A program made the position numbers and the translations under genes. A stretch of DNA of 64,000 bases from Schlegelella aquatica (GTDB lineage Bacteria; Pseudomonadota; Gammaproteobacteria; Burkholderiales; Burkholderiaceae_C): positions 930,001 through 994,000 of the forward strand of contig NZ_CP110257.1 in NCBI RefSeq assembly GCF_026013905.1, given 5' to 3'. Below are positions 2,410 to 40,350 of this stretch, piece by piece. Numbering within the stretch: position 1 is the first letter of the stretch; each line of letters begins with the position of its first letter. A model generated the notes under the pieces. That model did not search any database. It saw nothing but the letters and a program-made list of their open reading frames with translations, and was not told where the DNA came from.

Positions 2410-2430
2410 GTTTCTGCGCGCCCGACTCTC

Positions 2431-6226: not shown

Positions 6227-6231
6227 GCTTA

Positions 6232-7296: not shown

Positions 7297-7326
7297 ACGA
7301 ATCGAACACGGCTGCGGCGGCCCCTC

Positions 7327-9467: not shown

Positions 9468-9592
9468 GCCGGCTCCACCAGCCGTGCAAGGAGTCCTTCC
9501 ATGCGCTCCACGATCGGCGGGGCAGAGTCGCGCAGATGCAGGACCTCCGCGCCCCGATGGCCGCGCGTATGAACAACCTGAACGAGGCGCAT
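9464..9592 (-). pseudogene. 42-codon GT4 remnant, coupled on both sides
   Basis: A 42-residue frame lies exactly between hldE and the GT9 gene. Its ATG at 9592 shares bases with the hldE stop (TGATG), and its own stop overlaps the GT9 start (ATGA). The first 16 residues, [16 protein letters not shown], match the opening of GT4 glycosyltransferases, and the tail PPIVERMEGLLARLV resembles the last helix of such enzymes. The catalytic body is absent. The simplest reading is an in-frame internal deletion of a formerly full-length GT4 gene that kept both junctions. A genuine small protein, or an assembly collapse, remains possible. Confidence 0.6.
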
Positions 9593-24883: not shown

Positions 24884-27800
24884 TCAGCCGAGGTAACGCT
24901 GCAACTGCGTCACATCGACCGGCTTGACCATGTGGGCGTCGAAGCCCGCCGCCAGGGCGCGCTCCACGTCCTGCGGCTGGCCGTAGCCCGACAGCGCCAC
25001 CAGGGTGGTGCGCCGGCCGGCCGCCCGCACGCGCTGGGCGATCTCGTAGCCGGTGAGGCCGGGCAGGCCGATGTCCACCAGCGCGAGGTCGGGGTCTTCC
25101 TCCAGCAGCAGTTGCAGGCCCGAGGTGCCGTCCTCGGCGGAGCGCACCTGGTGGCCCGCCAGCGTGAGGAGGCTTTCGATCGCGAGGCGGGCGTCGTCGT
25201 TGTCTTCCACCACGACGACACGCTTGCTGTTCGAGGGCCCCGGGGCGGTTCGCGTGAGAGCGGCGCCGGACGGGTGAATGCGCGGCAGTCGCACGGTGAA
25301 GGTGCTGCCGCGGTTGGGGCCTTCACTGTGGGCCCCCACGCTGCCGCCGTGGAGCTCGACCAAGCGCCGCACCAGGGTGAGCCCGATCCCCAATCCGCCC
25401 TGGCGGCGGTCCAAGGCGCGCTCGCCCTGGACGAACAGGTCGAAGATGCGCGGCAGCAGCTCGGGAGCGAGACCGATGCCGGTATCGCGCACTTCCAGCA
25501 GGGCCTGCTCGCCGTCCTCGCCGACTCGCACGTGGATCGACCCGTCTGCCGGGGTGTACTTCACGGCGTTCGTGAGCAGGTTGGTGATCACCTGCTCCAT
25601 GCGCACCGGGTCCGCCTCGATCCACACATCGTGGTACTCGACGCTGAGCTTGTGTTGCCTCAGCGAGCCGGCCACCTCCATGGCGCCCAGCGTGCGCCGG
25701 ACCAACTGGGCCAAGTTGACAGGCTGGCGTGTCAGGGTGATCTTGCCGGCGGTGGCGCGCGCCATGTCGAGCAGGTCGTTCATGAGCCGCGCCAGGTGGC
25801 TCGTCTGCCGGGCGATGATGCGACGGGCGCTGGCGGCGGTCTCGTGACGGTGATCCACCCGGTTGAGCACCTCGACGGCCGCGGCGATGGCTCCCAGGGG
25901 GTTGCGCAGCTCGTGACCGAGCATGGCGAGGAACTCGTCCTTGGCGCGGTTGGCGTTCTCGGCCTCCCGGCGGGCGGCTTGTTCGCGGGCGACCAAGGCG
26001 GCGCGCTCTTGCTCGACCAGCTTCTGGTCGGTGACGTCCACGCACACCCCCACCATGCGCCAGGGCTGCCCGGCATCGTCGTAGGTCAGCAAGGCCCGGC
26101 TCGCGAGCCAGCGCAGCGTGCCGTCCGGCCGGATGGCGCGGAACTCGAACGTGGCGCGGTCGGCGTGCCGCGCGATGGCTTCCCGGATCTGGGCCCGGGT
26201 CCGGTGGGCGTCCTCCTTCACCACCCGGCGCCACCAGCCCCGTGCGCCGGGCTCCACCGCCTGGAGCTCGACGCCGAAAAGCTTGGCGAGGCCCGACGTC
26301 CACACGGCGCTGTCGTCGGCGAAGTGGTAGTCGAAGAAGCCGACGTGCCCGGCCTCCTGCGCGAGCTCGACCAGGTTCTGGCTCTCTCGCAGCCGGCGCT
26401 CGGCGAGGATGAGCCGCCGTTCGGCCTGCTTGCGCTCGGTGATGTCCACGAACGCGCCGACGGCGCCGCGCGGGCGGCCATCGGCTGCGCGCAAGGGCAC
26501 GGCATAGGCCAGCAGGTTGACCCTGCGCCCGTCGTCGTAGACGATTTCCAGCTCCAGGTCGCGCGTCTCCAGGCCCTCGAGGCAGGCCCGCTGCAGGGGG
26601 CGTTCCGAGGGCGGCAGCTCACGCCCGTAACGCATGATCTTCGGCGAGGCTCCCAGCGAGCGGGGCCGCTCGTGCCCGTCGTGGCCCCAGCGGCCCGGGG
26701 AGGCATTGAGGATGGCCGCCAGCGCCGGATTCATCAGCGTGGAGCGGCAATCCGGGTCTTGCGCGATGACGAGACCGATCGGGCTGCCGTTGAACAAGGC
26801 CTCGAACTCGTCGGCCTTGGCCTGTAGACGCTGGCGGGCCAGCTCGCGTTGCTCCGCGGCGTAGCGCAATGCGTCGCGCAGCACCGCGATCTCGCGCACC
26901 ACCACGTTGCGGCGCACCGCATCCGGGCCGAACAGCGCGAGCTGGCGCAAGGGACCGGTGACCTGGCGGGCGACGACCAGGGCGAGCGCCAGGCCGATCG
27001 AGAACGACAGCAAGCCAGCCCCCAGCGCGGAGGCGATGGCGCCCAGCTGGGCCCGGTCGAGCGGCCCGGCTTCCACGCCCACGCCCACCCCCCAGCCCGC
27101 CAGCGGCACCCGTTGCCAGGCGGCGTACATCGCGTCCGAGCCCCGGTGGGGGGCCGGGCGCACGCCGGCCCGCGCGTCGCCCGTGGCCCAGGGCAGCGCG
27201 GCCTGCTCGCCCGTGCCGAGGGAGCCCGGATCCAGACTGTGCGCGATGATGCGGGAATTGCCGTCGTAAAGGGACAGGAACCCGCCGCTGGGCACGCTCG
27301 CGTCGCGCATGAGCTTTTGCCAGTTGGAGGCGGGGATGACCGCGCCCAGCACGTACTGAAGGCGCCCGTCCCTCAGGACGGGGACCTGGATGGTCGTGAC
27401 CAGCTCGCCGCGGCCGGCGGTGTCGTCGTAGCTCACGCCCAGATCCGAGATGACCGGCTCGCGCAGCGTGCGAAGTTGCTCGAACTCGATGGTGCCCGCC
27501 AGTTCGCCCACGGGCCGCCCCAAGGGGCGCTTGGTCGAGAACAGCACGCGCCCGTCCGGTGCGGCGAGGTAGGCGTGGTCCCAGCTGGCGCGCAGCGTGG
27601 GCCAGCGCGTCAAGGTGTCATAGAAGCGCGCGATGTCGTGGCGCTGCAGGGATTCGGCGTAGGCGAGGATCGACAGCGCATCGATCGAGGACACCAGTTC
27701 GCGCTCCACGGCCAGCGCGAAGGTGTTGGCCGTGCGGCGCAGGCCTTCCTCGAGCTGGGTGCGGGCGGCCAGGGTCTCGCGGTAGACGAGGTAGGACACA

Positions 27801-27955
27801 TACAGCGCCATGGGGACCGTCGCAATGACGATCACGAGCACCCAGTAGGCGCCTAGAGATGCGGCCGGCCATTGCACACGCAACCGCCACCCCCGCAAGG
27901 CCTTGCTCGCGTGCGCGGTGATTGTTGCGACGCGGCGCCACCCGAACGACTGCAT
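24884..27955 (-). CDS. membrane hybrid sensor histidine kinase (Cache-type sensor, PAS x2, HisKA, receiver)
   Basis: Start ATG 27955 is tentative; ATG 28006 or 28048 in the same frame would add 17 or 31 residues but coding character is weak there. A membrane helix at about residues 34-58 and another near 300-325 enclose a periplasmic Cache-like sensor domain. PAS domains centre near 385 and 535. The HisKA His is near 678 (LGHELRNPLGAIAAAV), the N box near 792 (NLLTNAVKYTPADG), and the receiver Asp near 961 (LALVDIGLPGLTGYE). It senses an external small ligand by family analogy. The gene is divergent from the PRC-barrel operon and convergent with the acidic-protein gene. Confidence 0.9.
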   Translation of the reverse strand: MQSFGWRRVATITAHASKALRGWRLRVQWPAASLGAYWVLVIVIATVPMALYVSYLVYRETLAARTQLEEGLRRTANTFALAVERELVSSIDALSILAYAESLQRHDIARFYDTLTRWPTLRASWDHAYLAAPDGRVLFSTKRPLGRPVGELAGTIEFEQLRTLREPVISDLGVSYDDTAGRGELVTTIQVPVLRDGRLQYVLGAVIPASNWQKLMRDASVPSGGFLSLYDGNSRIIAHSLDPGSLGTGEQAALPWATGDARAGVRPAPHRGSDAMYAAWQRVPLAGWGVGVGVEAGPLDRAQLGAIASALGAGLLSFSIGLALALVVARQVTGPLRQLALFGPDAVRRNVVVREIAVLRDALRYAAEQRELARQRLQAKADEFEALFNGSPIGLVIAQDPDCRSTLMNPALAAILNASPGRWGHDGHERPRSLGASPKIMRYGRELPPSERPLQRACLEGLETRDLELEIVYDDGRRVNLLAYAVPLRAADGRPRGAVGAFVDITERKQAERRLILAERRLRESQNLVELAQEAGHVGFFDYHFADDSAVWTSGLAKLFGVELQAVEPGARGWWRRVVKEDAHRTRAQIREAIARHADRATFEFRAIRPDGTLRWLASRALLTYDDAGQPWRMVGVCVDVTDQKLVEQERAALVAREQAARREAENANRAKDEFLAMLGHELRNPLGAIAAAVEVLNRVDHRHETAASARRIIARQTSHLARLMNDLLDMARATAGKITLTRQPVNLAQLVRRTLGAMEVAGSLRQHKLSVEYHDVWIEADPVRMEQVITNLLTNAVKYTPADGSIHVRVGEDGEQALLEVRDTGIGLAPELLPRIFDLFVQGERALDRRQGGLGIGLTLVRRLVELHGGSVGAHSEGPNRGSTFTVRLPRIHPSGAALTRTAPGPSNSKRVVVVEDNDDARLAIESLLTLAGHQVRSAEDGTSGLQLLLEEDPDLALVDIGLPGLTGYEIAQRVRAAGRRTTLVALSGYGQPQDVERALAAGFDAHMVKPVDVTQLQRYLG

Positions 27956-28111
27956 GCGACAACCCGACAACCCGTGCTTTGTGTATGTGTCGTGCAGACG
28001 GCCCATCGACCCGCCGCCTGCGTCGGCCACCCTCGAGGGCGCAATCATGCGGCGAAGACGCCCTCCAACCTTGAACGAATGTAACCGAGCGCAGCGGCTG
28101 CGCGGTGCCCC

Positions 28112-28127
28112 GGGCATGGGGGTTGCC
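28112..28127 (+). promoter_or_regulatory. probable sigma-54-type promoter ahead of the PRC-barrel gene
   Basis: GGGCATGGGGGTTGCC keeps the invariant GG and GC with 10 bases between and the TTGC core; it departs from consensus at three positions, so it is weaker than the other three. It lies about 96 bases upstream of ATG 28223. A small inverted repeat (GCGCAG/CTGCGC at 28089-28103) sits just upstream. Confidence 0.42.
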
Positions 28128-28222
28128 GCCTAAAGGGCAGTCGCACCCCGGGACGCGAGTCTCGGCTCGGGGGCATCCGGGCCGACCGAGAGGTGGCCCT
28201 CACGACGGAAAGGAGTACGACG

Positions 28223-28627
28223 ATGGCAGACATCACTTCGGGCGAAGGCGCCCGCATCGACATCAACGCGAGCGGCCCCGGGCCGCGGCTCATGACCGCG
28301 GACACGCTCACGGGCGACAAGGTGGTCAACCGCCAGGGCGAGACGCTCGGCACGATCGACCACATCATGCTCGACGTGCCGCGCGGACGGATCGCCTACG
28401 CGGTCATGTCTTCCGGCGGGTTCCTCGGCCTGGGCGACAAGCTGTTCGCGATTCCATGGAGCGCGCTCACGCTCGACACCGAGCGCAAGTGCTTCATCCT
28501 GGACGCCGACAAGGAGTTCTTCAAGAGCGCACCGGGTTTCGACAAGGACCACTGGCCGGCCGAAGCCGACATGAGCTGGCACCAGGCGCTGCACTCGACG
28601 TACCGGTCGCGGCCCTACTGGGAATGA
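28223..28627 (+). CDS. PRC-barrel domain protein
   Basis: AAAGGAG precedes ATG 28223. The 134-residue protein carries one PRC-barrel (about residues 22-95): GDKVVNRQGETLGTIDHIML, then AYAVMSSGGFLGLGDKLFAI with PWSAL. PRC-barrels are small beta folds used in photosynthetic reaction-centre H subunits, RimM and many stress proteins. The remaining C-terminus (FDKDHWPAEADMSWHQ) is common to a Burkholderiales subgroup. Function is not known; the operon context is envelope stress. It is followed after 10 bases by a small membrane protein gene. Confidence 0.88.
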   Translation: MADITSGEGARIDINASGPGPRLMTADTLTGDKVVNRQGETLGTIDHIMLDVPRGRIAYAVMSSGGFLGLGDKLFAIPWSALTLDTERKCFILDADKEFFKSAPGFDKDHWPAEADMSWHQALHSTYRSRPYWE

Positions 28628-28998: not shown

Positions 28999-29149
28999 CT
29001 CGTGTCGTCTTGGTGCTTCATTCCGTGGGGCAGGCGCCTCACGGCGTTCCAGGGAAGTTTTACCGGCGCCTCGCCGCACCTGCGGGGGTGCAGAGCCCGC
29101 GTCGCACGCCGGCCACCGCAGGCCCGTCGGTCGCAGGGCGGGGCGAGAG

Positions 29150-29164
29150 TGGCACACCGTTTGC
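29150..29164 (+). promoter_or_regulatory. sigma-54 promoter of the glycan operon
   Basis: TGGCACACCGTTTGCC contains the complete TGGCAC and TTGC elements with the obligatory 10-base spacing between GG and GC. Transcription would start near 29176, about 25 bases before ATG 29201. It is the best sigma-54 match seen in the window, and no competing sigma-70 promoter stands out in the 269-base gap. Activation would need an NtrC-type protein such as the one encoded at 16376-17746. Confidence 0.72.
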
Positions 29165-29200: not shown

Positions 29201-30526
29201 ATGAAGAACCGCGCACGCCGAGCCCCGTTGAAGATCGCTCTCATCAGCGAGCATGCGTCTCCGCTGGCCACCCTCGGCGGCGTGGACGCCGGGGGCCAGA
29301 ACATCTACGTGGCCCACATGGCCCGTTGTCTGGCCGAGGCCGGTCATCAGGTCGACGTGTTCACGCGGCGCGACGACGCGATGCTGCCCACCGTCGTGCA
29401 CCTGCGGCCCGGGCTGCGCGTCGTCCACATCGATGCCGGCCCGCCGAGCTTCGTGCCCAAGGAGCACTTGCTGCCCCACATGGCGCGCTTTGCCAGCGAG
29501 TGCGAGCGTCTCTTTCGCAACACGGGGGGCTACGACGTCGTTCACGCGAACTTCTTCATGTCGGGCCTGGTCGCGTTGCACCTCAAGCACACGCTGGGCG
29601 TTCCGTTCGCGATCACCTTCCATGCGCTGGGCTTGGTGCGCCGCGAGCATCAGGGCGAAGCGGACGGCTTTCCGGCCGAGCGCATCGACATCGAGCGGCA
29701 ACTCGTCGCCGAGGCGGACTGCATCGTCGCGGAATGCCCGCAGGACCGCGCCGACCTGGTGAGGCTGTACGGCGCCGACGAGCGCCGCATGGTGATGGTG
29801 CCCTGCGGGTTCGATCCGGCGGAGTTCTCGCCGATGGACCGGCGCCGGGCGCGCCTCGAACTGGGCCTCGACCCGGGCGAGTTCGTGGTGCTGCAGCTCG
29901 GCCGGATGGTGCCTCGCAAGGGCGTGGACAACGTGATTCGCTCGATCGCGCACTTGCCCACCGACGTGCCGGCCAGGGTGTTGGTCGTCGGCGGCGAGTC
30001 GGAGGAGCCCGACGAGCGCGCCACGCCCGAGATCGGCCGCCTGCGCGCCATCGCGCGTGAGCTGGGCGTGGAGTCGCGCATGAGCTTTGCCGGGCGCCGG
30101 CAGCGCGCTGACCTGCGGCGCTACTACTGCGCGGCCGATGTGTTCGTCACCACGCCTTGGTACGAGCCGTTCGGGATCACCCCCTTGGAGGCGATGGCCT
30201 GCGGCACGCCGGTGATCGGCAGTGCGGTGGGAGGCATCCAGTACTCGGTGGTGCAAGGCGTCACCGGCTACCTCGTGCCCGCCCGCGACCCGGCCGCGCT
30301 CGCCGAGCGTCTGGCCTGGTTGCACCGCAACCCCGAGCTGGCCCGCGCGCTGGGGCGCGCCGGCATTCGGCGGGCGCGCTCGCTGTTCACCTGGGAGCGG
30401 GTGGCGGGGCAACTGGGCCAGGTGCTGCAGACGCTGCGGCACACCGAGCGCAGGCGCCAATCGGCCGTGGTGGTGCCGCTGCGACGCACCGCGGTGCTGA
30501 CCGCCGTGCAGGGCGCCACCCCGTGA
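29201..30526 (+). CDS. glycosyltransferase family 4 (sucrose-synthase/MshA-like)
   Basis: The 441-residue GT-B enzyme starts at ATG 29201. The N-terminal loop LGGVDAGGQNIYVAHMA is the form found in sucrose-phosphate synthase and MshA-like GT4 enzymes. The core LQLGRMVPRKGVDNVIRSIA and donor site EPFGITPLEAMACGTPVIGS complete the fold. It is the first gene of the sigma-54-driven glycan operon; SDR and gmhB genes follow. Acceptor and product are unknown. Confidence 0.92.
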   Translation: MKNRARRAPLKIALISEHASPLATLGGVDAGGQNIYVAHMARCLAEAGHQVDVFTRRDDAMLPTVVHLRPGLRVVHIDAGPPSFVPKEHLLPHMARFASECERLFRNTGGYDVVHANFFMSGLVALHLKHTLGVPFAITFHALGLVRREHQGEADGFPAERIDIERQLVAEADCIVAECPQDRADLVRLYGADERRMVMVPCGFDPAEFSPMDRRRARLELGLDPGEFVVLQLGRMVPRKGVDNVIRSIAHLPTDVPARVLVVGGESEEPDERATPEIGRLRAIARELGVESRMSFAGRRQRADLRRYYCAADVFVTTPWYEPFGITPLEAMACGTPVIGSAVGGIQYSVVQGVTGYLVPARDPAALAERLAWLHRNPELARALGRAGIRRARSLFTWERVAGQLGQVLQTLRHTERRRQSAVVVPLRRTAVLTAVQGATP

Positions 30527-30598
30527 CGGCCCGCTCGGCCGCCGGCTTTGTTCCCTTCGTCCCCTATCACTCATCAAAACACTGATCAGGAGAGTTGA

Positions 30599-31357
30599 AT
30601 GACGCGTTCGCAAGCGCCAGAGATGACGCAGTTGCAGGACCAGGTGGCGCTGGTCACAGGGGCCGGGCGAGGGCTCGGGGCGGAGATCGCTCACGCGCTC
30701 GCCGATGCGGGATGCCGCGTGGCCGTGGCCGATCTGGACCGCGGGCTGGCCGAGCGCGTGGCCGGCGAGATCGACAAGGCCGGCGGACACGCCTTGCCGC
30801 TCGTGCTCGATGTGGCCGACGCGGCCGCGGCGCGCCAGGCAGTGGAGCAGACCGTCTCGCACTTCGGCTCGCTCGACATCCTCATCAACAACGCGGGCAC
30901 CGACGTCACCAAGCCGATCGACGAGCTGGCCCTCGAGGAATGGGACCGCGTGCTCGCCACCAACCTGCGTGGACCGTTCGTGCTGTGCAAGGTGGCGCTG
31001 GAGGCCCTCAAGCGCGGCGACCGCGGACGCGGCGGGCAGATCGTGAACGTCGCCTCCACGGCCGCCAAACGCTGCTGGCCGAACGCCAGCGCCTACCACG
31101 CCAGCAAGTGGGGGCTCGTCGGGCTGTCGCACGCGCTGCATGCCGAGTTGCGGCCGCATGGCGTGCGCGTCTCGACGCTGGTGGCTGGCGGCATGCGCAC
31201 GCCCTTCCTGCTCGACCGCTTCCCGGGCATCGACGAGACGAAGCTGCAGGACCCGGCCAATGTCGCGCTGGCCGTGCGCTTCCTGCTCACGATGCCGCGT
31301 GAGTCGGTCATTCCCGAACTCATGGTGCTGCCCGTGCAGGAGACTTCATGGCCCTGA
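30599..31357 (+). CDS. short-chain dehydrogenase/reductase
   Basis: The 252-residue classical SDR has the cofactor motif TGAGRGLG near residue 21, the structural NNAG near 99, and the catalytic YHASK near 162. AGGAG lies seven bases before the ATG. Its 3' end overlaps gmhB by 10 bases, so it belongs to the glycan operon and may oxidise or reduce a nucleotide sugar or a precursor. SDRs have many substrates and the sequence does not identify one. Confidence 0.9.
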   Translation: MTRSQAPEMTQLQDQVALVTGAGRGLGAEIAHALADAGCRVAVADLDRGLAERVAGEIDKAGGHALPLVLDVADAAAARQAVEQTVSHFGSLDILINNAGTDVTKPIDELALEEWDRVLATNLRGPFVLCKVALEALKRGDRGRGGQIVNVASTAAKRCWPNASAYHASKWGLVGLSHALHAELRPHGVRVSTLVAGGMRTPFLLDRFPGIDETKLQDPANVALAVRFLLTMPRESVIPELMVLPVQETSWP

Positions 31358-31992
31358 CCCTCGGCATGCGCGCCAGCGGTCGGCACCCGGCCGTCTTCGT
31401 GGACAAGGACGGCACGGTCGTCGAGAACGTGCCGTACAACGTCGATCCGGCGCTGGTGAGCTTCACCCCCGGTGCGATCGAGGGCCTGCAACTGTTGGCC
31501 GACGCCGGTTTCCGGCTGGTGATGATCACCAACCAGCCCGGCGTGGGGCTGGGGCTCTTCGACGAGGCCGCGTTGGTGCGCTTGCAGCGCTGGCTCACCG
31601 ACCGGCTGGCCGAGCGCGGCATTCCGCTGGAGGGCTTCTACGCATGCACGCACGCGCCGGGGTTGGATGCCTCGCGTCCGCCCTGTGCGTGCCGCAAACC
31701 GGCGCCCGGGCTGTTGCTGCAGGCCGCCGAGGACCTCGATCTCGACCTCGCCCGCTCGTGGATGGTGGGCGACATCCTCGACGACATCGAGGCCGGGCGC
31801 CGTGCGGGGTGCCGCACGGTGATGCTGGATGTCGGCAACGAGACCGTGTGGCGCACCTCGCAGTGGCGCGTGCCGCACCATCGCGCCGCCGACTTCTGGG
31901 AAGCCGCCTGCCACATCGTCGAGCACTCCGGCGTGGATGCACGCGCCCCTGACGTCGGGAGGCTTGCGCATGACGCGGCAGCCCGAGGCTGA
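31348..31992 (+). CDS. gmhB: D,D-heptose 1,7-bisphosphate phosphatase-like HAD-IIIA hydrolase
   Basis: The 214-residue protein shows the HAD-IIIA order: DKDGTVVENVPYNVD (nucleophile Asp in an unusual DKDGT form), ITNQPGVGLGLF, and the zinc-loop cysteines and histidine in CTHAPGL..PPCACRKP. The final motif is MVGDILDDIEAG. GmhB removes the 7-phosphate of heptose bisphosphate on the way to ADP-heptose, between the two activities of HldE (9592-11016). A role in the local glycan, in LPS, or in both is possible. It overlaps the SDR and GT9 genes by 10 and 23 bases. Confidence 0.85.
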   Translation: MALTLGMRASGRHPAVFVDKDGTVVENVPYNVDPALVSFTPGAIEGLQLLADAGFRLVMITNQPGVGLGLFDEAALVRLQRWLTDRLAERGIPLEGFYACTHAPGLDASRPPCACRKPAPGLLLQAAEDLDLDLARSWMVGDILDDIEAGRRAGCRTVMLDVGNETVWRTSQWRVPHHRAADFWEAACHIVEHSGVDARAPDVGRLAHDAAARG

Positions 31993-33133
31993 GGCCCAGC
32001 GGATGCGGCGCTGGCGGCGCGCGAGGCGGGTGCTCGCGGTGCGCTTGGACAACCTCGGCGATCTCCTGATGACCACACCGGCCATCGCCGCGCTGCGCGA
32101 GGGCCTGCCGGACGATGCGCGCATCACCCTGTTGTGCTCGCGCGCCACGAGCCAGGCACTGCCGCACCTGCCCGACGTGAACGACGCGATCGTCTATGAC
32201 GCGCCATGGGTCAAGGGCGAGGGTGGGCACCGCCCACCCCGGCAGGACCACGAACTGATCGGGCAGCTGGCCGCGCGCGGGTTCGACGCCGCGGTGATCT
32301 TCACCGTCTACACCCAAAGCGCGCTGCCTGCGGCGTTGATCTGCCGGCTGGCCGGCATCCCCCTTCGGCTGGCGCACTGCCGCGAGAACCCATACGACCT
32401 CCTGACCGACTGGGTGCCGGACCCCGAGCCCGCCAGCGGCATCCGCCACGAGGTGGAACGGCAGCTGGCACTGGTCGCGCGGCTGGGGTTTCGGACCGAG
32501 GACGCGCGGCTGCGCTTTCGCACCCGGGCCCTCGACGAGGCGAGCCTGGACGAGCGCCTGCACGAACTCGGCGTGGACCGCGGCCAGCCTTACGTGGTGG
32601 TGCATCCCGGTGCGACGGCCTCCTCGCGCCGCTATCCCGCCGAGCGCTTCGGCATGGCGGCCGATGCCATTGCCCACGCGACGGGCGCCGCGATCCTCTA
32701 CACCGGCTCGGGCGCCGAGGAGGAGCTGGTGCGCAGGGCCCAGGCGTCGATGCGGCGGCCCTCGTACAGCCTGGCGGGGCGGCTCGGCCTGGGCGAGTTC
32801 GCGGTGCTGTTGCGCGATGCGCGCCTCTTGGTGTCGAACAACAGCGGGCCGGTGCACCTGGCGGCGGCGCTCGCCACGCCGGTGGTCGACCTGTACGCGC
32901 TCACCAACCCGCAGCACACGCCCTGGCAGGTGCCCTCGCGGGTGCTCAACCACGACGTGCCCTGCCGCAACTGCCTCAAGAGCGTGTGTCCCCAGGGCCA
33001 CCACGACTGCCTGCTCAAGGTCGAGCCCGAGGCGGTGGTGCGTGCCGCGCTGGAGCTTTACGGCCTGCGCGACAGCGTCGCGCCTTGTCCCGCGTTCTCG
33101 ACCGATCGGCTCTCGCAGCCCGCCTACGCATGA
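31970..33133 (+). CDS. glycosyltransferase family 9
   Basis: ATG 31970 has GGGAGG upstream and lies inside the end of gmhB. The 387-residue enzyme has the GT9 start VLAVRLDNLGDLLMTTPAI near residue 21 and the donor-site motif VSNNSGPVHLAAALATPVV near residue 290. A cysteine-rich segment (CRNCLKSVCPQGHHDC) near the C-terminus is common in GT9 relatives outside the LPS core. Next to gmhB, it is a candidate for adding ADP-heptose to the unknown glycan. Its stop overlaps the carbamoyltransferase start by 4 bases. Confidence 0.9.
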   Translation: MTRQPEAEAQRMRRWRRARRVLAVRLDNLGDLLMTTPAIAALREGLPDDARITLLCSRATSQALPHLPDVNDAIVYDAPWVKGEGGHRPPRQDHELIGQLAARGFDAAVIFTVYTQSALPAALICRLAGIPLRLAHCRENPYDLLTDWVPDPEPASGIRHEVERQLALVARLGFRTEDARLRFRTRALDEASLDERLHELGVDRGQPYVVVHPGATASSRRYPAERFGMAADAIAHATGAAILYTGSGAEEELVRRAQASMRRPSYSLAGRLGLGEFAVLLRDARLLVSNNSGPVHLAAALATPVVDLYALTNPQHTPWQVPSRVLNHDVPCRNCLKSVCPQGHHDCLLKVEPEAVVRAALELYGLRDSVAPCPAFSTDRLSQPAYA

Positions 33134-34878
33134 TCACACTCGGTATCAACGCCGCTTTTCACGACAGCTCGGCCGCTCTCGTCGTCGACGGACGTGTGGT
33201 GGCCGCAGCCGAAGACGAGCGCTTCACCCGCATCAAGCACGGCAAGCGGCCGGTGCCCTTCACGGCCTGGGAGCTGCCGTTCCACGCGATCGACTACTGC
33301 CTGCAGGAGGCGGGGGTGACCCTGGCCGACGTGGACCACGTGGCCTACAGCTACGATCCCGCGCGCTTCATCCGCGACCGCCTGCCCGAGGGGCGCATCG
33401 AGTTGCCGCTGGAGCCCTCGGCCCATGCGGCGGGCCCCTGGGAGAACGTGTGGGACCCGCTCTTCGCGAGCTACGTCCTCAATGCCCCGCGCCAGCTCGC
33501 CAGCGGCGCGCCTCACCACCTGAAGGCTCGGTTCCGGGGCGTCCAGCACGACGGCCCGTTCCAGTGGCATCACGTGGAGCACCACCAGTGCCACCAGGCG
33601 AGTGCCTTTCTCGCCGCCCCGTACGAACGCTGCGCTGTGATGACGCTGGACGGGCGGGGCGAGGAGGCGACCACGACCTACGGCGTATGGAGCGGGGAGC
33701 GGTACGAGTCGCTCGGTGAGGTGACGATGCCGCACTCCCTGGGCCTGCTGTACGAGCGCATCACCTCGCACCTGGGCTTCCTGCATTCGAGCGACGAGTA
33801 CAAGGTGATGGCGCTGGCCGCCCTGGGCCGGCCGGTCTATGCCGACGCGTTCCGCGAGCTGGTGCGGCCGCGCGGGCAGGGCCGCTACGAAGTGCTGCCC
33901 TTCGACGCACCCGCCCTGTTCGGGCCACCGCGGCAACGCGGCGAGCCCTTGGAGCAGCGGCACTTCGACATCACGGCGTCGTTGCAGACGGTGCTCGAAG
34001 AGACGGTGATCGAGCTGGCGCGCTGGCTGCGACGCGCGAGCGGGGAGCGCTACCTGGCGATGGCGGGGGGTGTGGCCCTCAACTGCGTGATGAACGCGAA
34101 GCTGCGGGATGCGGGGGTGTTCGACGGCGTGTGGGTTCAACCGGCGGCGGGCGATGCCGGCACCGCCCTCGGCGCGGCGCTGTGGATCGACTGGCAGCAA
34201 CGCAGCGCTGGGGCCGCACGGCCCGCGCCGCGCGAGTGGGTGATGGAACATGCCTACTGGGGGCCGCAGTTCTCCGACGACGAGATCGAGCGGTTGCTGC
34301 GCTGGGCCAAGCTGCCGTACCGCCGGCTGGACGACGTGCCGCGGCAGACCGCGCAGCTGCTGGCGGCCGATCGCATCGTGGGGTGGTTCCAGGGGCGCAT
34401 GGAGTTCGGTCCCCGCGCGCTGGGGGCCCGCTCGATCCTGGCCTCGCCGCTGGATGGCGCCATGCAGGCGCGGCTGAACGAACTCAAGGACCGCGAGGAC
34501 TTCAGACCGGTCGCTCCCGTGGTCCCGGAAGATGACCTGGCGCAGTGGTTCATGCCGGCGCATGCCAACCACGGCCAGTCCCCGTTCATGCTGTTCGTCT
34601 ACGACGTGCGGCCCGAGCAGGCGTCGCGCATTCCCGCGGTGTGCCACGCCGACCGCACGGCGCGCGTGCAGACGGTGCGACGCGACACCCACCCGTGCTA
34701 CTACGACACGCTCAAGGCCTTCGGTGCGCTCACCGGGGTGCCGGTGCTCGTCAACACGTCGTTCAACGTGCGCGGCGAGCCCATCGTGTGCACGCCGCGC
34801 GATGCGCTCAACGCCTTCTTCAGCACCCCGCTCGACGCCCTGGTAATCGGCTCGTTCCTCGTGGAGAAGCGCTCATGA
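33130..34878 (+). CDS. carbamoyltransferase (NodU/CmcH family)
   Basis: This 582-residue protein has an N-terminal ASKHA/TsaD-like domain (ITLGINAAFHDSSAALV; catalytic histidines in HHQCHQASAF near residue 155; GGVALNCVMNAKLRDAG near 313). A C-terminal YrdC-like synthetase domain (about 370-580) contains GRMEFGPRALGARSILA. Such enzymes use carbamoyl phosphate and ATP to O-carbamoylate a sugar hydroxyl, as NodU does on Nod factors. Pseudomonas aeruginosa core heptose is carbamoylated, so a heptose acceptor is plausible here, but that is inference. It is coupled to both neighbours by ATGA overlaps (33130-33133, 34875-34878). Confidence 0.93.
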   Translation: MITLGINAAFHDSSAALVVDGRVVAAAEDERFTRIKHGKRPVPFTAWELPFHAIDYCLQEAGVTLADVDHVAYSYDPARFIRDRLPEGRIELPLEPSAHAAGPWENVWDPLFASYVLNAPRQLASGAPHHLKARFRGVQHDGPFQWHHVEHHQCHQASAFLAAPYERCAVMTLDGRGEEATTTYGVWSGERYESLGEVTMPHSLGLLYERITSHLGFLHSSDEYKVMALAALGRPVYADAFRELVRPRGQGRYEVLPFDAPALFGPPRQRGEPLEQRHFDITASLQTVLEETVIELARWLRRASGERYLAMAGGVALNCVMNAKLRDAGVFDGVWVQPAAGDAGTALGAALWIDWQQRSAGAARPAPREWVMEHAYWGPQFSDDEIERLLRWAKLPYRRLDDVPRQTAQLLAADRIVGWFQGRMEFGPRALGARSILASPLDGAMQARLNELKDREDFRPVAPVVPEDDLAQWFMPAHANHGQSPFMLFVYDVRPEQASRIPAVCHADRTARVQTVRRDTHPCYYDTLKAFGALTGVPVLVNTSFNVRGEPIVCTPRDALNAFFSTPLDALVIGSFLVEKRS

Positions 34879-36035
34879 GTCGGCAAGCCACCGTGATGGA
34901 TCGCCCGCCCGCAGACGACTTGCGCCAGCCCGCCGACGAACCGCTGGCGCGCACACGCGAGCAGCAAGCGCCCGCACCCGGCAAAGGGCCCGAGGCCGAG
35001 CAGCGCCGTCGCCCGCACGTCGAGCACGGCGGACTCGCCGGTCGGCGCGCGGCCTTGGCAGTGGTCAAGGTCTCCGTGGTGATTCCGACCTGCGGCCGGC
35101 CCCAGTTGCTGCTGCGATGCCTCAATGCGCTGGTGGAGCAAAGCCTCTCGCCCGACGACTACGAGATCGTCGTGGTCGACGACGGCCACCACGACGAGAC
35201 GGAAACGCTGGTGGCCCGCGTGGCCGAGCAAACGCAAGGGCGTCCGGTCGTCCGCTACCTGAGGCCCGAAGGCACCCGCGGGCCCGCCGCGGCGCGCAAC
35301 CGGGGATGGCGCGCTGCGCGGGCGGAGTTGATCGCCTTCACCGATGACGACACCATCCCGGACCGCGACTGGCTGCGCTACGGCCTTTTCGCCATGCAGA
35401 CGGGCGAGCGGCCGGCCATCTGGGGCCGTACCGTCGTGCCGACCCCTCCGGTGCCCACCGACCACGAGAAGAACACGCGCGGGCTCGAGGCCGCGCGTTT
35501 CATCACGGCCAACTGCTTCGTGCGCAAGGCGGCTCTCGACGCGGTGGGCGGGTTCGACGAACGCTACCGCAAGGCCTGGCGAGAGGACGCCGACCTGTAC
35601 TTCGCGTTGATGGAGCGCTACGGCGAGATCGACCAGGTCAGCGCGGCGGTCGTCGTGCATCCCGTGCGCGAGGCGCCGTGGGGGGTGAGCCTCAAACAGC
35701 AGTCCAACGTGTACTACGACGCGCTGCTCTACAAGAAGTACCCGCGCCTGTACCGCGAGCGCATCCGGCCGGTGCCGCCGTTGCGCTACTACGCCATCGT
35801 CGGCTCGACCTTCCTGGGCGTGGTGTGCGCCGTCTTCGGTGAGTGGGCCTGGGCGGGAGCCGCGTGGGCGGCGAGCGCGGTGCTCATCGGCAGCTTCGCC
35901 TGGCAGCGGCTGCGCGACACCTCGCGCGCGCCACGGCACGTGGCCGAGATGATCGTCACCTCTGCGGCGATCCCTTTCCTCTCCATTTACTGGCGGGTGC
36001 GGGGAGCCTTCCATTTCCGCACCCCCTTCGTGTGA
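34875..36035 (+). CDS. glycosyltransferase family 2 with C-terminal membrane helices
   Basis: The 386-residue protein has about 60 extra N-terminal residues, polar and likely disordered, before the GT2 domain (VKVSVVIPTCGRPQLLLRCL near residue 60). The nucleotide-sugar site is in AFTDDDTIPDRDWL and the catalytic region in FDERYRKAWREDADLYFAL. Two hydrophobic helices at about 300-345 and a further one near the end would anchor it in the inner membrane. It starts within the carbamoyltransferase stop and precedes the broken radical-SAM gene by 12 bases. Confidence 0.9.
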   Translation: MSRQATVMDRPPADDLRQPADEPLARTREQQAPAPGKGPEAEQRRRPHVEHGGLAGRRAALAVVKVSVVIPTCGRPQLLLRCLNALVEQSLSPDDYEIVVVDDGHHDETETLVARVAEQTQGRPVVRYLRPEGTRGPAAARNRGWRAARAELIAFTDDDTIPDRDWLRYGLFAMQTGERPAIWGRTVVPTPPVPTDHEKNTRGLEAARFITANCFVRKAALDAVGGFDERYRKAWREDADLYFALMERYGEIDQVSAAVVVHPVREAPWGVSLKQQSNVYYDALLYKKYPRLYRERIRPVPPLRYYAIVGSTFLGVVCAVFGEWAWAGAAWAASAVLIGSFAWQRLRDTSRAPRHVAEMIVTSAAIPFLSIYWRVRGAFHFRTPFV

Positions 36036-36582
36036 CGGAGCCCGCGCGTGAACGAGGCCGCCCCGAACGAGAGCACCCTGGCACCCCCGTTGCCGAGGTT
36101 CGCCCAGATCGAGCCCAGCAGCACGTGCAACCTTGCGTGCCGCATGTGCACGGTCAACCATCGGCCCGACGCCGGACCGATGCTGTCGATGGAGGACTTC
36201 GTGCACCTGCTGGACCAGCTGCCGGGGTTGGAGCAACTGCATCTGCAGGGGCTGGGCGAGCCGATGCGCAATCCTCGCTTCTTCGACATGGTGAGCCTGG
36301 CGGCCTCGCGCGGCATCCGTGTCACGGCCAACACCAACCTCACGTTGCTCACTCCCGAGCGGGCCGAGCGTTGCGTGACCAGCGGCTTGCACACCTTGTC
36401 GGTGTCCGTCGATGCGGCCGAGCGCGCACCGTACGAGGACATCCGCCGCAAGGCTTCGTTCGACAAGGTCGTTCGCAACCTTCATCGGCTCGCGCAGGCG
36501 AGGCGGCGCCACCGCAGCGCCCTGCAAGTCCGCTTGGTGATGGTGCTCATGCGACACAACCTCGACCAGCTCCTGCCTCTAG

Positions 36583-37742
36583 GGAAGGTCTGAACAACTC
36601 CGCCCGATTGCGCGACAATGCCTCACCGTGATCGGGGTGAGTGCGATGCAGCTGTCGTTCGGTGATGCCGAGGGTCTGGGGAGCCGCAAGCGCACGCGGC
36701 GCGAGGTGTTTTTGGCGGAGATGGAGCAGGTGGTGCCGTGGCAGGCGCTGCTGGGTCTGATCGAGCCGCACTACCCGAAGATGGGCCGTCCCGGTCGCCA
36801 GCCCTATCCGTTGGCGACGATGCTGCGCATCCACTTCCTGCAGCAGTGGTATGCGCTCAGCGACCCGGCGATGGAAGAAGCCTTGTACGACACGCCGGTG
36901 ATGCGCCGCTTCGCGCAGTTGGGCGGGCTTGCCGACATCCCGGACGAGACGACGATCCTCAACTTCCGCCGGCTGTTGGAGACGCACGGGCTGGCCGAGA
37001 AGCTCTTCGAGCAGGTCAACGCCCATCTTCAGCGCAAGGGCCTGAGCCTGCGCAGTGGCACGATCGTGGATGCCACGATCATCAGTGCGCCGAGCTCGAC
37101 CAAGAACAAGGCGGGCGAGCGCGATCCGGCGATGCACCAGACCAAGAAGGGCAACCAGTGGTTCTTCGGGATGAAGGCGCACATCGGCGTGGATGACGCG
37201 TCCGGTCTGGTGCACCACGTGGAATGCACGGCGGCGAACGTGGCCGACGTGACGCAGGTGTACAAGCTGCTGCACGGCCGGGAAGACACGGTGTGCGGCG
37301 ACAGCGGCTACACGGGTGCCGAGAAGCGCGAGGAGCTGCAGGACGTGGACGCCGGATTCCTGATCGCGGAGAAGCCGTCGAAGCTGCGTGCGATGAAGAA
37401 CGAGCGCGAGCGGCGCTACGCCGAGCGGTGGGAGCGCTACAAGGCCAGTCTGCGGGCGAAGGTGGAGCACCCGTTCCGGGTGATCAAGCGGCAGTTCGGC
37501 TACACGAAGGTGCGCTACCGCGGCCTGGCGAAGAACGCGGCGCAGGTGCTGACGCTGTTCGCGCTGTCGAACCTGTGGATGGCGCGCCGGCGTTTGTTGC
37601 CGACGACGGGAGCAGTGCGTCCGTAAGGCGGGGAAACCCGCCAAAAACCGCCCTGCACGGGCGAAATCCGGCTCGAAAGCGACGCCAGGCCGGCGCCACG
37701 ATGCCGCAATCCGGGCGGCAGAGCGGGTTGTTCAGACCTTCC
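36583..37742 (+). mobile_element. IS5-family insertion sequence, 1160 bp
   Basis: The ends are perfect 16-base terminal inverted repeats, GGAAGGTCTGAACAAC at 36583-36598 and its complement at 37727-37742. The target duplication is CTAG at 36579-36582 and 37743-37746, agreeing with the YTAR target of the IS5 group. It carries one transposase gene in the same direction as the interrupted operon. Identical duplications and an intact transposase indicate recent insertion. It is likely polar on the two downstream glycosyltransferase genes unless outward promoters exist. Confidence 0.95.
36646..37626 (+). CDS. IS5-family transposase (InsH-like)
   Basis: The 326-residue DDE transposase has the same length as InsH of E. 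coli IS5 and matches it along the chain: RKRTRREVFLAEMEQVVPWQ, then TIVDATIISAPSSTKNK with the first catalytic Asp. The second Asp is in VCGDSGYTGAEKREEL, and the Glu region is VEHPFRVIKRQFGYTKVRYRG. ATG 36646 was chosen; a GTG at 36628 would add six residues. The frame is intact, so the element is probably active. Confidence 0.95.
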   Translation: MQLSFGDAEGLGSRKRTRREVFLAEMEQVVPWQALLGLIEPHYPKMGRPGRQPYPLATMLRIHFLQQWYALSDPAMEEALYDTPVMRRFAQLGGLADIPDETTILNFRRLLETHGLAEKLFEQVNAHLQRKGLSLRSGTIVDATIISAPSSTKNKAGERDPAMHQTKKGNQWFFGMKAHIGVDDASGLVHHVECTAANVADVTQVYKLLHGREDTVCGDSGYTGAEKREELQDVDAGFLIAEKPSKLRAMKNERERRYAERWERYKASLRAKVEHPFRVIKRQFGYTKVRYRGLAKNAAQVLTLFALSNLWMARRRLLPTTGAVRP

Positions 37743-38224
37743 CTAGTGCGGCTCGCGGTGCAGGTCGACGTGCACGAGTTGCTGGTGCAGCGCCTGTCCT
37801 CGGACCTCGAGGAGCCCGGGGCGCCGACGCGCTACATCCCCATCCGGGAGTACGTGCGCGAGGCGCAGTTGCGCGAGGTCGACACACCGCATGCGAGCGA
37901 GGTGTTCGCGCAGGCGTGCCGGCTGGCCGCGGCGCTCGGTGTGCGCTTGCATCTGCCCCGGCTCACGCCGCCGGCCGAGGCGCCCGGCTGCCGCTGGCCC
38001 TGGGAGCAGCTCTACCTGACCGCCTCGGGCGAGATGCTGCCTTGCTGCATGGTCGCCACGCCCGATCGGGCACGCTTCGGCAACGCGCTGCGAGACGGCC
38101 TGCTTGCCGTCTGGCACGGGCAGGCCGCGCGGCGCTTCCGGGCCCAGCTCGCCAGCGGCCGCCCGCCGTCGGTGTGCCGGCACTGCGCGCTCTACCAGGG
38201 TGCGTTCTGAGGGGATGATCGATC

Positions 38225-39379
38225 ATGAAGCCGCCCTTGCCACTGGCCCAAGCCTTGCACTGCGAGCCGGGCGAGGTGGTGCGCATCGGCGTCTTTCGCG
38301 CCTTGATGCTTGGCGACCTGTTATGCGCGATACCGGCCTGGCGGGCCCTGAAGAATGCCTGCCCGCATTCGGTGGTCACGCTCATCGGGTTGCCCTGGGC
38401 GCGGGCCTTGGCCGAGCGCCTGTCGTGCATCGACGATTTCGTCGCGTTTCCCGGCCATCCGTTCCTGCCCGAGGCCAGTGCAGACTTGCCCGCCTGGCCG
38501 GGCTTTCTCGCCCAGGTGCAAGAGCGGCGCTTCGATCTGCTGCTGCAGATGCACGGCAGCGGCACCTTGAGCAACGCGCTGGTCTCGCTCTTCGGTGCCC
38601 GCAGGCTGGTGGCCTTCCATCCGCCCGGCGAGCCTGCGCCGCCGGGAGTCGATGTGGCGGTGGCGTGGCCGCAGGCGGGCCACGAGACCGAGCGCTTGAT
38701 GCGGCTGGTGCGCGCGCTCGGCATCAGCGGGGCAGAGGGGGCGGAGGAGTTCCCGCTGCGTGACGAGGACCGCGCCCGCCTTCGCGCCCTCTGGCCGGCG
38801 GGTCAAACCGTCGGACGGTACGTGGTGCTCCACCCCGGCGCGCAGTTGCCGTCGCGCCGTTGGCCGGCCGAGCGGTTCGCTCAGGTCGGCGATGTGCTGG
38901 CGGCGCGGGGCCTGTCGGTCGTCGTCACGGGAACGGCCGCCGAGCGCGAGCTGGCACGCGAAGTGGTGGCACGCATGCACCGTCCGGCCCTCGACCTGTG
39001 CGGTCTCACCGGGCTGTGGGAGCTCGGGGCATTGCTCGAAGGCGCCGCCTTGCTCGTGAGCAACGACACCGGGGTCGCCCACGTGGCCGCCGCACTCGGG
39101 ACGCCGCGCGTGGTCGTGAGCTGCGGCGGCGACGTGTACCGCTGGCAGCGCCCGGCGCCCGAGGCCCGGGTGCTGTGGCACGACGTGCCGTGCCGGCCTT
39201 GCGCCTACCGCCAATGCCCGATCGCGCACCCCTGCGCGCGGGCCGTCACCGCCGAACTGGTGGCCGAGGCCGCGCTCGATCTGATCGAAGCCCCTGCGAG
39301 GCCCGAAGGCGGCCTCGCCCCCGGCTCCACGCCCTGGCGTGGCGAGGCGGTGCGTCTCGCCGGGCGCCATCTCTCATAG
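38225..39379 (+). CDS. glycosyltransferase family 9
   Basis: The 384-residue GT-B protein starts 14 bases after the radical-SAM stop. GT9 motifs are VRIGVFRALMLGDLLCAIPA near residue 19 and VSNDTGVAHVAAALGTP near residue 278. A cysteine group (CRPCAYRQCPIAHPC) near residue 325 resembles that of the GT9 at 31970-33133. The two may therefore act in the same polymer. It is downstream of the IS insertion and may be under-expressed in this strain. Confidence 0.9.
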   Translation: MKPPLPLAQALHCEPGEVVRIGVFRALMLGDLLCAIPAWRALKNACPHSVVTLIGLPWARALAERLSCIDDFVAFPGHPFLPEASADLPAWPGFLAQVQERRFDLLLQMHGSGTLSNALVSLFGARRLVAFHPPGEPAPPGVDVAVAWPQAGHETERLMRLVRALGISGAEGAEEFPLRDEDRARLRALWPAGQTVGRYVVLHPGAQLPSRRWPAERFAQVGDVLAARGLSVVVTGTAAERELAREVVARMHRPALDLCGLTGLWELGALLEGAALLVSNDTGVAHVAAALGTPRVVVSCGGDVYRWQRPAPEARVLWHDVPCRPCAYRQCPIAHPCARAVTAELVAEAALDLIEAPARPEGGLAPGSTPWRGEAVRLAGRHLS

Positions 39380-39387
39380 AACCACCC

Positions 39388-40350
39388 ATGCACACCTCGC
39401 GACCTCTGAGAATCCTCACCTGGCACGTCCACGGCAACTACCTGTACTACCTGACGCAGGTGCCGCACGAGTTCTACCTCGTGGTCGACGATGAGCGGTC
39501 CGTCCACCACACGGGCCGCAGCGGCACGCTGCCGTGGGGCGACAACGTGCACGAGGCGAGCGTCGACCGCATCCGTGACATGCCGTTCGACATCATCCTG
39601 TTCCAGTCGAAGCACGCGTGGGTGGAGGAGCAGCACCGGGTACTGAGCGCCGCCCAGCGGCGCCTGCCGCGCATCTACCTCGAGCACGACCCGCCGCAGG
39701 AGCATCCCACCGGCACCCGCCATTGGGTGCAGGACCCGAACGTGCTGCTCGTGCATTGCACGCCGTTCAATGCCCTCATGTGGGACAGCGGCACGACGCC
39801 GACGAGGGTGATCGAGCACGGCGTGAAGCTGATGAACGATGCGCGATACCGCGGCACCAAGGCCGAGGGCATCGTGGTGGTGAACAATCTCGCCAAGCGC
39901 GGTCGCCGGCTGGGGCTCGATGTGTACCGACAGATGCGGCAGGAGGTCCCGCTCGCACTGGTGGGGATGGGCGCCGACGAACTGGCCGGTGAGGGCGGGC
40001 TCGGCGAAGTGGAGAACCGGCGCTTGGCCGAGTTCGTGGCCGACTACCGGTTCTTCTTCAACCCGATCCGCTACACGAGCCTGGGGTTGGCGATCATCGA
40101 AGCGATGATGGTCGGCCTGCCGGTGGTGGGTTTGGCCACCACCGAGCTGGTGACGGTGATCCGCAACGGCGAGAACGGCTTCGTCGACACCCGGCTGGAC
40201 CGCTTGGCCGAGGCGATGAAGCACCTGCTCGCGCACCCCGAGGAGGCCCGGCGCCTGGGCGAGGCCGCGCGACGCACCGCGCTGGAGCGGTTCGGCATCG
40301 AGCGCTTCGTGCGCGACTGGATGGACGCGTTCGCGCTCGTCACCTCCTGA
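39388..40350 (+). CDS. glycosyltransferase family 4, short form
   Basis: This 320-residue protein keeps the C-terminal GT4 donor domain (SLGLAIIEAMMVGLPVVGLA near residue 230). Its N-terminal half (RILTWHVHGNYLYYLTQV, then YLEHDPPQEHPTGTRHWV) is shorter than in classic GT4 enzymes and is typical of a subgroup often called glycosyltransferase family 1. It is the last gene of the glycan operon, 8 bases after the GT9 stop, and meets the lldD-like gene convergently. Confidence 0.88.
   Translation: MHTSRPLRILTWHVHGNYLYYLTQVPHEFYLVVDDERSVHHTGRSGTLPWGDNVHEASVDRIRDMPFDIILFQSKHAWVEEQHRVLSAAQRRLPRIYLEHDPPQEHPTGTRHWVQDPNVLLVHCTPFNALMWDSGTTPTRVIEHGVKLMNDARYRGTKAEGIVVVNNLAKRGRRLGLDVYRQMRQEVPLALVGMGADELAGEGGLGEVENRRLAEFVADYRFFFNPIRYTSLGLAIIEAMMVGLPVVGLATTELVTVIRNGENGFVDTRLDRLAEAMKHLLAHPEEARRLGEAARRTALERFGIERFVRDWMDAFALVTS

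Follow-up and report, generated by a model that had tools for sequence, protein, structure and literature searches.

The stretch of DNA analyzed here (hereafter, the window) covers 64,000 bases, corresponding to bases 930001-994000 of the single-contig, 3,348,564-base genome of Schlegelella aquatica, and contains a nine-gene operon which, judging from its gene families and their recurrence in distant bacteria, is no local assemblage but belongs to a real and conserved pathway. The genes (Table 1) encode two family 4 glycosyltransferases (GT4a and GT4b), a short-chain dehydrogenase/reductase (SDR), a GmhB-like phosphatase, two family 9 heptosyltransferase-type enzymes (GT9a and GT9b), an O-carbamoyltransferase (CarbT), a family 2 glycosyltransferase (GT2), and a radical S-adenosylmethionine (radical-SAM) protein. 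We consider it probable that the operon is a sigma-54-controlled, betaproteobacterial version of the pathway encoded by the Streptomyces cwg operon, and that it produces a short envelope glycan, carbamoylated and containing heptose, rather than part of the lipopolysaccharide (LPS) core.

A scan of genome contigs with CarbT returned at least 594 stretches, of which the best 80 were kept; these loci represent the sequences most similar to the query and not a random sample. Their reading frames were clustered, and seven partners (GT2, GmhB, the two GT9 enzymes, GT4b, GT4a, and SDR) were then scored with several queries per family. At least five of the seven partners occur beside CarbT in 62 of these 80 best loci, spanning six phyla: Actinomycetota (29 of 35 loci), Pseudomonadota (20 of 27), Bacteroidota (7 of 8), Chloroflexota (3 of 4), Planctomycetota (2 of 3), and Verrucomicrobiota (1 of 1); the single loci from Omnitrophota and Methylomirabilota (the latter on a 3.2 kb contig) fall below this number. 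All seven partners were recovered in 20 Actinomycetota, 10 Pseudomonadota, two Chloroflexota, one Bacteroidota, and one Verrucomicrobiota locus, and in none from Planctomycetota, Omnitrophota, or Methylomirabilota. Phyla were labeled manually on the basis of record titles (that of L018 says only Proteobacteria), and several of the records are metagenome-assembled genomes (MAGs) that may be misbinned. Beyond the seven partners, genes recurring around CarbT in the 80 loci include an NAD epimerase, HldE, GmhA, and an extra GT2, among others. Sixteen of the 27 Pseudomonadota loci have a gene for an ABC exporter close to the set, whereas the window operon has none; in L006 (7086-9800), this exporter seems by eye to bear a C-terminal receiver-like domain.

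Partners are lacking around more distant carbamoyltransferases. Ten control CarbTs from the same taxonomic family, including a paralogue in the genome of the window strain and three congener sequences, are 30-43% identical to the query (tblastn); within up to about 9 kb on each side (for L139, one flank extends only 4.2 kb), no partners were found near any of the ten, except for a weak SDR match about 8 kb away in L138. The CarbTs of Actinomycetota are only slightly closer to the query (46-50% identical), yet are accompanied by the partners. In a CarbT tree of 105 rows, built with a quick method and leaving out the solved homologs TobZ, GdmN, 9s2t, and 7xb6, a branch with support of 99 places 93 rows on one side, including a few that lack the set (e.g., L006 and L008); outside it fall the ten controls, L061, and L080, a 14 kb locus in which CarbT occurs with no partners. 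Pairwise distances for CarbT are correlated with those for GT4b (0.945), GT2 (0.936), GT4a (0.867), GmhB (0.831), and SDR (0.732), the five families covered (the GT9 pair was left out), and none of 499 permutations gave values as high.

The same association is observed in an order-level sample of 300 genomes, taken to be identical for the CarbT and GT4b searches on the basis of shared handles. A close CarbT (at least 799 bits) is present in six genomes, the window strain included, and GT4b (E < 1e-40) in eight; all six genomes with a close CarbT contain GT4b, as compared with none of the 18 with a distant CarbT only (at most 416 bits). The two genes are spaced 2.1-2.4 kb apart in four of the five other genomes with a close CarbT, and occupy different contigs of a draft assembly in the fifth (G267). 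Two further genomes, G182 and G361, contain GT4b (55 and 63% identical, respectively) without a close CarbT, and may represent variants of the pathway.

Within the genus, a search of nine genomes (the window strain included) identified CarbT at 75-80% identity in six of the eight other members, and all six loci were retrieved (L109-L114). L109 coincides with L005 of the 80-locus set (Aquabacterium sp. A7-Y); L005 was accordingly omitted from promoter counts, the CarbT tree, and distance correlations, and is counted through the L109 matches in the 80-locus table. The order of a PRC-barrel gene, GT4a, SDR, GmhB, GT9a, CarbT, GT2, radical SAM, GT9b, and GT4b is common to L109-L113; the sixth congener (L114) contains the set without the radical-SAM gene. 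The PRC-barrel gene, located just upstream, is 77-82% identical in five of the six congener loci, and the sixth has a partial match at 43% identity. A gene-neighborhood search had been proposed as a check by an earlier reading of the sequence alone (the sequence-only reading); the outcome, in congeners and across the 80 loci, is that the gene set recurs elsewhere, beyond what chance would give. In a family-level sample of 120 genomes, one per genus and including the window strain, a close CarbT occurs in 10 of the 119 other genera, and the operon is thus patchy at both ranks. Seven of these ten family loci contain at least five partners; L116 contains four, L117 two, and L119 none. In L123 (G056), the CarbT match is broken into two segments that lie in different frames, and in L122 (G052) the GT4a and GT2 matches have large internal gaps; decay or sequencing error may be responsible.

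The sequence-only reading had also placed a sigma-54 promoter before the operon, and this prediction is borne out. The site upstream of the lead gene, GT4a, is an exact match to TGGCACNNNNNTTGC and has the GG-N10-GC arrangement at -24/-12, conserved upstream of GT4a, of a predicted promoter; the one other exact match to TGGCACNNNNNTTGC in the same search lies at 36079, inside the radical-SAM gene. A GGYAY-N5-TTGC motif is found at the same place in all seven operon-bearing members of the genus, where the surrounding DNA can hardly be aligned. Defined as GGYAY-N5-TTGC within -150 to +30 of a start, with expectations taken from the rate in the same loci, this strict motif occurs at 19 of 33 betaproteobacterial GT4a starts (0.47 expected), at five of 42 CarbT starts (0.6 expected), and at zero or one start for each of the other seven genes. 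At all 14 remaining betaproteobacterial GT4a starts, a GG-N10-GC site that agrees with the consensus in 7-9 of 10 letters can be located within 200 bases; this result is left out of the count, as GG and GC were demanded in the search and no control was made. No strict motif was found at GT4a in 31 Actinomycetota loci (0.01 expected) or in 15 loci from other diderms and Chloroflexota (0.06 expected). In excerpted text from a comparative study, Actinobacteria are described as lacking sigma-54, and sigma-54 is tied to functions of the cell exterior (PMC3162934). A block upstream of the promoter, GGAAGWTTTACCG, is a candidate activator site; all six of its occurrences in 1.92 Mb of loci are within the genus and precede the GT4a sigma-54 site by 76-98 bases, and it is absent from L114, but the pattern was found by eye in the same sequences in which it was counted, so that these numbers are descriptive only. 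No convincing activator site shared outside the genus emerged when the sequences preceding 26 sigma-54 sites were searched for common k-mers. A hybrid histidine kinase gene (dCache, PAS, HATPase, and receiver domains) lies upstream of the PRC-barrel gene on the opposite strand (window 24887-28117, reverse strand), and its product may be the sensor that acts on the operon.

The presence of GmhA and HldE beside the set in Actinomycetota, which are not known to have LPS, makes heptose the likely sugar of this pathway; GmhA is present in 33 of the 35 loci from this phylum and HldE in 31. The association also implies that ADP-heptose is used outside LPS. The HldE adenylyltransferase domain scored above the NCBI cut-off (181.5) in all three proteins tested, from L071 (Actinomycetota, 188.5) and from L017 and L009 (both Chloroflexota, 181.9 and 201.2), and GmhA was the best family for the one protein tested (from L066), although below its cut-off. 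The window operon itself brings only GmhB; two further GmhB-like matches, also below cut-off, lie at 2.788 Mb, and the sole HldE adenylyltransferase match in the genome (window 9607-10029, reverse strand) adjoins an LPS-core-type locus (window 679-9932, reverse strand) containing an ABC transporter, a methyltransferase, a GT2/GT4 fusion, a GT25, two GT9 genes, and a GT4. The G+C content falls to about 0.55 at window 2-7 kb, as compared with about 0.70 elsewhere. Two further GT9 genes are located at 463-465 kb of the genome.

These genes bear on the possibility that the operon is an accessory LPS-core locus, in which the two GT9 enzymes and CarbT would decorate inner-core heptose, as is said of WapO in Pseudomonas. 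The family of the GT9 enzymes, whose best NCBIfam matches are LPS heptosyltransferases, is consistent with such a role, as are the LPS-type locus of the host and the carbamoylated HepII of the Pseudomonas core (excerpt of PMC8005017). However, both GT9 proteins fall below the LPS-heptosyltransferase equivalog cut-off (TIGR02195), GT9a closely; the gene set, accompanied by GmhA and HldE genes in its own clusters, also occurs outside LPS-bearing bacteria; the window contains a distinct LPS-type locus that has HldE and two GT9 genes, which, together with the GT9 pair elsewhere in the genome, argues against assigning the operon to the LPS core; and the operon is patchy among congeners and family genera. 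LPS core was therefore rejected as the principal interpretation, and we regard this alternative as quite improbable. The proposal of the sequence-only reading that the product is a heptose-type, carbamoylated, and probably short glycan is supported by the GmhA and HldE genes of the actinomycetotal clusters and by the operon's lack of a polymerase or exporter, which is the reason for thinking the glycan short.

Genes SCO6179-6190 of Streptomyces coelicolor, which resemble the window operon and were reportedly named the cwg operon by Hong et al. in 2002, were compared by way of L071, a locus from Streptomyces violaceorubidus. In published accounts, SCO6179-6190 is described as the cwg operon, which is vancomycin-induced and partly sigmaE-dependent and whose predicted product is a cell wall glycan (PMC6767563); a table lists cwgB to cwgJ without SCO6184, with cwgH as a phosphoheptose isomerase and cwgI as a bifunctional synthase/transferase (PMC5839063); and cwgE is given as a putative heptosyl transferase (PMC5882110). 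The gene order in L071 (epimerase, CarbT, GT2, GmhB, GT9, GT4b, GT4a, HldE, GT9, with GmhA also in the locus) fits the SCO6180-6188 list in the excerpted table (PMC5839063). The cwg promoter printed in the excerpted article (PMC6767563) occurs once in L071 with two mismatches and ends 146 bases before the first gene, compared with 147 in print; the divergent SCO6178 promoter occurs once with three mismatches, and none of 100 shuffles gave such matches. Because gene order and both printed promoters match, L071 is identified, by sequence comparison, as carrying the cwg operon.

Several observations weigh against the interpretation of the operon as a cwg-type heptose pathway. Fewer than five partners were found in 18 of the 80 loci, and while some of these are short contigs, L006, L008, L028, and L061 (each at least 21.7 kb) are without most of the set. 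SDR occurs in just 14 of 27 Pseudomonadota and two of eight Bacteroidota loci, and was not found in L071. The distance correlations must in part reflect plain relatedness of the organisms; among betaproteobacteria alone, r falls to 0.801 for GT4b, 0.798 for GT4a, 0.791 for GT2, 0.661 for GmhB, and 0.585 for SDR. The proteobacterial form is usually without GmhA and HldE (each is present in 2 of 27 loci), so that heptose in this form is suggested by GmhB, GT9, and homology. GmhB, GT9a, GT9b, GT4a, and GT2 all score below curated equivalog cut-offs and their exact substrates may therefore differ; the sugars, acceptor, and linkage proposed here are likewise read from protein families. Finally, the link to cwg runs through a relative rather than through the sequence of S. 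coelicolor itself, and the printed cwg promoter was not recognizable in four other Streptomyces loci (L083, L059, L048, and L070; best 18-20 of 29 letters), where regulation may thus differ.

The gene content suggests the following scheme. ADP-heptose would be supplied by housekeeping enzymes together with a GmhB, the HldE and GmhB genes being present in the genome. GT9a and GT9b, by family, would add heptose; GT4a, GT4b, and GT2 may attach other sugars or initiate chain synthesis on an acceptor. By analogy with TobZ-type enzymes and with the carbamoylated HepII of the Pseudomonas core, CarbT would add a carbamoyl group to a hydroxyl. A sugar may be oxidized or remodeled by the SDR and, in strains with an intact copy, by the SPASM radical-SAM enzyme. 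Transcription would require sigma-54 and an activator, in keeping with the conserved promoter. The product could instead be a soluble or secreted small saccharide or glycoside natural product. GT4a resembles MshA and GT2 resembles MftF (both below cut-off), and MshA and MftF glycosylate small molecules; solved relatives of CarbT include antibiotic enzymes, and BtrN, DesII, and cytosylglucuronate decarboxylase are among the solved relatives of the radical-SAM protein; the operon proteins have no clear membrane anchor. Induction of the Streptomyces form by vancomycin, and its partial sigmaE dependence alongside other cell-envelope genes (excerpt of PMC6767563), instead favor an envelope product, as does the tie of sigma-54 to exterior functions (excerpt of PMC3162934), though both would be compatible with a small molecule as well. 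Among papers listed in the open-access literature, a search for ADP-heptose natural-product clusters gave no relevant match. We consider a natural product unlikely, and an envelope glycan the better interpretation.

The sequence-only reading included a working SPASM radical-SAM step, which does not hold for the window strain. An IS5-type insertion sequence (IS) at 36583-37742 interrupts the radical-SAM gene, with the radical-SAM part before and the SPASM part after the element; the protein is encoded as one open frame, with the CxxxCxxC motif and SPASM cysteines, in five congeners but not in the window, and the window strain is without a whole radical-SAM enzyme. The element is present in six copies in the genome, 100% identical across all 1160 bases, from which it follows that the insertion was probably recent. 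The gene is also rare, occurring in none of the ten further family loci and in five of the 80 best-matching loci (L005, a congener, L009, L018, L020, and L077). It looks like an accessory gene, and its absence from L114, from the ten family loci, and from 75 of the 80 fetched loci suggests that the pathway is able to dispense with it. This observation, together with a sigma-54 site that matches consensus and eight other open reading frames that are 54-80% identical to those of congeners, counts against the operon being a relic, decaying or already nonfunctional after the insertion. Such decay would be in keeping with the six identical copies, which suggest recent movement, and with the position of the element, which could cut transcription of GT9b and GT4b; we nevertheless judge it quite unlikely.

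In congeners, the intact protein carries a SPASM domain (PF13186), and the closest solved relatives by profile of these radical-SAM/SPASM proteins are PqqE, BtrN, cytosylglucuronate decarboxylase, and DesII (E 5e-12 to 1.6e-10), with DesII and cytosylglucuronate decarboxylase also matching by single sequence. These similarities are weak, and NifB, MoaA, 5wgg, and 8wm2 match too, at higher E. BtrN, cytosylglucuronate decarboxylase, and DesII act on sugars or aminocyclitols; as these are three of the closest solved relatives, a sugar substrate appears, weakly and by analogy, likelier than a peptide. In L009, L020, and L077, loci from Chloroflexota and Planctomycetota MAGs, the radical-SAM gene is 47-48% identical to that of L110; this could reflect independent transfer, misbinning, or an ancient origin of the accessory gene. 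A second IS5-type stretch (window 45200-46120, forward strand) is 69% identical to the element in the radical-SAM gene, with a similar copy at 3.273 Mb, and the G+C content falls to 0.62-0.64 at window 43-48 kb.

Pfam matches and reading frame coordinates place nine genes of named families at 29201-40350 on the forward strand, just where the sequence-only reading had them, if the split radical-SAM gene is counted (Table 1).

Table 1. Features of the operon and its upstream region in window coordinates (feature, position, strand, and evidence; scores are given against family cut-offs).
PRC-barrel protein, upstream context, outside the nine genes	28193..28627	+	PF05239
Block GGAAGWTTTACCG, candidate activator site	29053..29065	+	98 bases before GG of sigma-54 site
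Sigma-54 (-24/-12) promoter TGGCACACCGTTTGC, predicted	29150..29164	+	exact match to TGGCACNNNNNTTGC
GT4a, glycosyltransferase family 4, MshA-like	29201..30526	+	PF00534 131 bits; TIGR03449 289.9 vs. cut-off 462.5 bits (below)
SDR oxidoreductase	30599..31357	+	PF00106
GmhB-like HAD, heptose-bisphosphate 7-phosphatase	31348..31992	+	NF006506 130.1 vs. 178 bits; TIGR00213 118.2 vs. 149.6 (both below cut-off)
GT9a, heptosyltransferase family, cysteine-rich C-terminus	31970..33133	+	PF01075; TIGR02195 130.9 vs. 134.6 bits
CarbT, NodU/TobZ-type O-carbamoyltransferase	33130..34878	+	PF02543 and PF16861; solved relatives 9s2t, 7xb6, GdmN, TobZ
GT2 glycosyltransferase, MftF-like	34875..36035	+	PF00535; TIGR03965 120.8 vs. 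280 bits (below cut-off)
Radical-SAM gene, 5' part (CxxxCxxC), interrupted	36048..36593	+	PF04055
IS5-type element	36583..37742	+	perfect 16-base inverted ends GGAAGGTCTGAACAAC; CTAG at 36579-36582 and 37743-37746; transposase 36628-37626 (PF01609)
Radical-SAM gene, 3' part (SPASM cysteines), severed	37745..38210	+	match to intact congeners; no Pfam hit alone; PF13186 in intact congener protein
GT9b, second heptosyltransferase-family enzyme, cysteine-rich C-terminus	38225..39379	+	PF01075; TIGR02195 80.5 vs. 134.6 bits
GT4b, small GT4 glycosyltransferase	39388..40350	+	PF13692, PF00534

The several 4-base overlaps described by that reading reduce to two ATGA junctions, GT9a/CarbT and CarbT/GT2; the remaining junctions comprise one 10-base overlap, one 23-base overlap (assuming 31970 as the GT9a start), and gaps ranging from 8 to 72 bases. 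Its statement that the operon contains no Wzx, Wzy, chain-length, or ABC export genes agrees with Pfam scans of ten proteins, none of which matched these families. A capsule or O-antigen locus of the Wzx/Wzy or ABC type was accordingly rejected, with flippase, polymerase, and export families found in none of the nine operon genes. Hydrophobic stretches in the operon proteins are few and weak; membrane anchoring of GT2 was considered and rejected, the window protein having one marginal hydrophobic stretch and that of L071 none. No lipid- or peptidoglycan-attachment families were recognized in the operon set with Pfam and NCBIfam.

A wider interpretation, on which we are evenly divided, is that a single stress-inducible, carbamoylated, LPS-independent heptose oligosaccharide is made by the same pathway in one- and two-membrane bacteria of at least six phyla, under sigmaE in Streptomyces and sigma-54 in betaproteobacteria. 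If so, heptose glycobiology would extend well beyond LPS, and ADP-heptose use apart from LPS would be implied for Actinomycetota. The occurrence of the same set in Gram-negative bacteria under a recognizable promoter would provide tractable hosts; one genus offers a natural comparison of strains with and without the operon, and carbamate and heptose are defined targets for mass spectrometry.

Comparison with characterized systems places the operon closest to cwg. Seven genes co-located in the cwg form, as represented by L071 (CarbT, GT2, GmhB, two GT9, GT4b, and GT4a), are all present in the window. An NAD epimerase, GmhA, HldE, and an extra GT2 belong to the cwg form but not to the window operon; HldE lies inside the cluster in L071 but elsewhere in the genome of the window strain. 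Conversely, SDR and radical SAM were not seen in L071, whereas both are present in the window, the radical-SAM gene in broken form, and the cwg form is read by sigmaE, whereas the window form has a sigma-54 site instead. Without its own GmhA, HldE, and NAD epimerase, the window operon is best described as a cwg homolog and not as the 12-gene operon itself. The LPS core cluster of Pseudomonas, in the excerpted description (PMC8005017), similarly combines heptosyltransferases with a carbamoyltransferase, WapO (PA5005), said to modify heptose; it is likened here by description rather than by sequence, and differs in building LPS core with heptose kinases, whereas the window operon has none and has homologs in Actinomycetota. 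CarbT homology to TobZ, GdmN, the decarbamoylnovobiocin carbamoyltransferase (9s2t), and 7xb6 spans both domains (280-317 bits), but the acceptors of these enzymes are, by name, antibiotics. The proposal that the locus is an undescribed system therefore stands in part: a homologous Streptomyces operon is in print, while neither a cwg product structure nor a proteobacterial homolog appeared among the matches listed in the open-access literature, which excludes most subscription journals, and the cross-phylum link was likewise not found there. The pathway is thus known in part in Streptomyces; its breadth and its sigma-54 form are, as far as we have seen, new.

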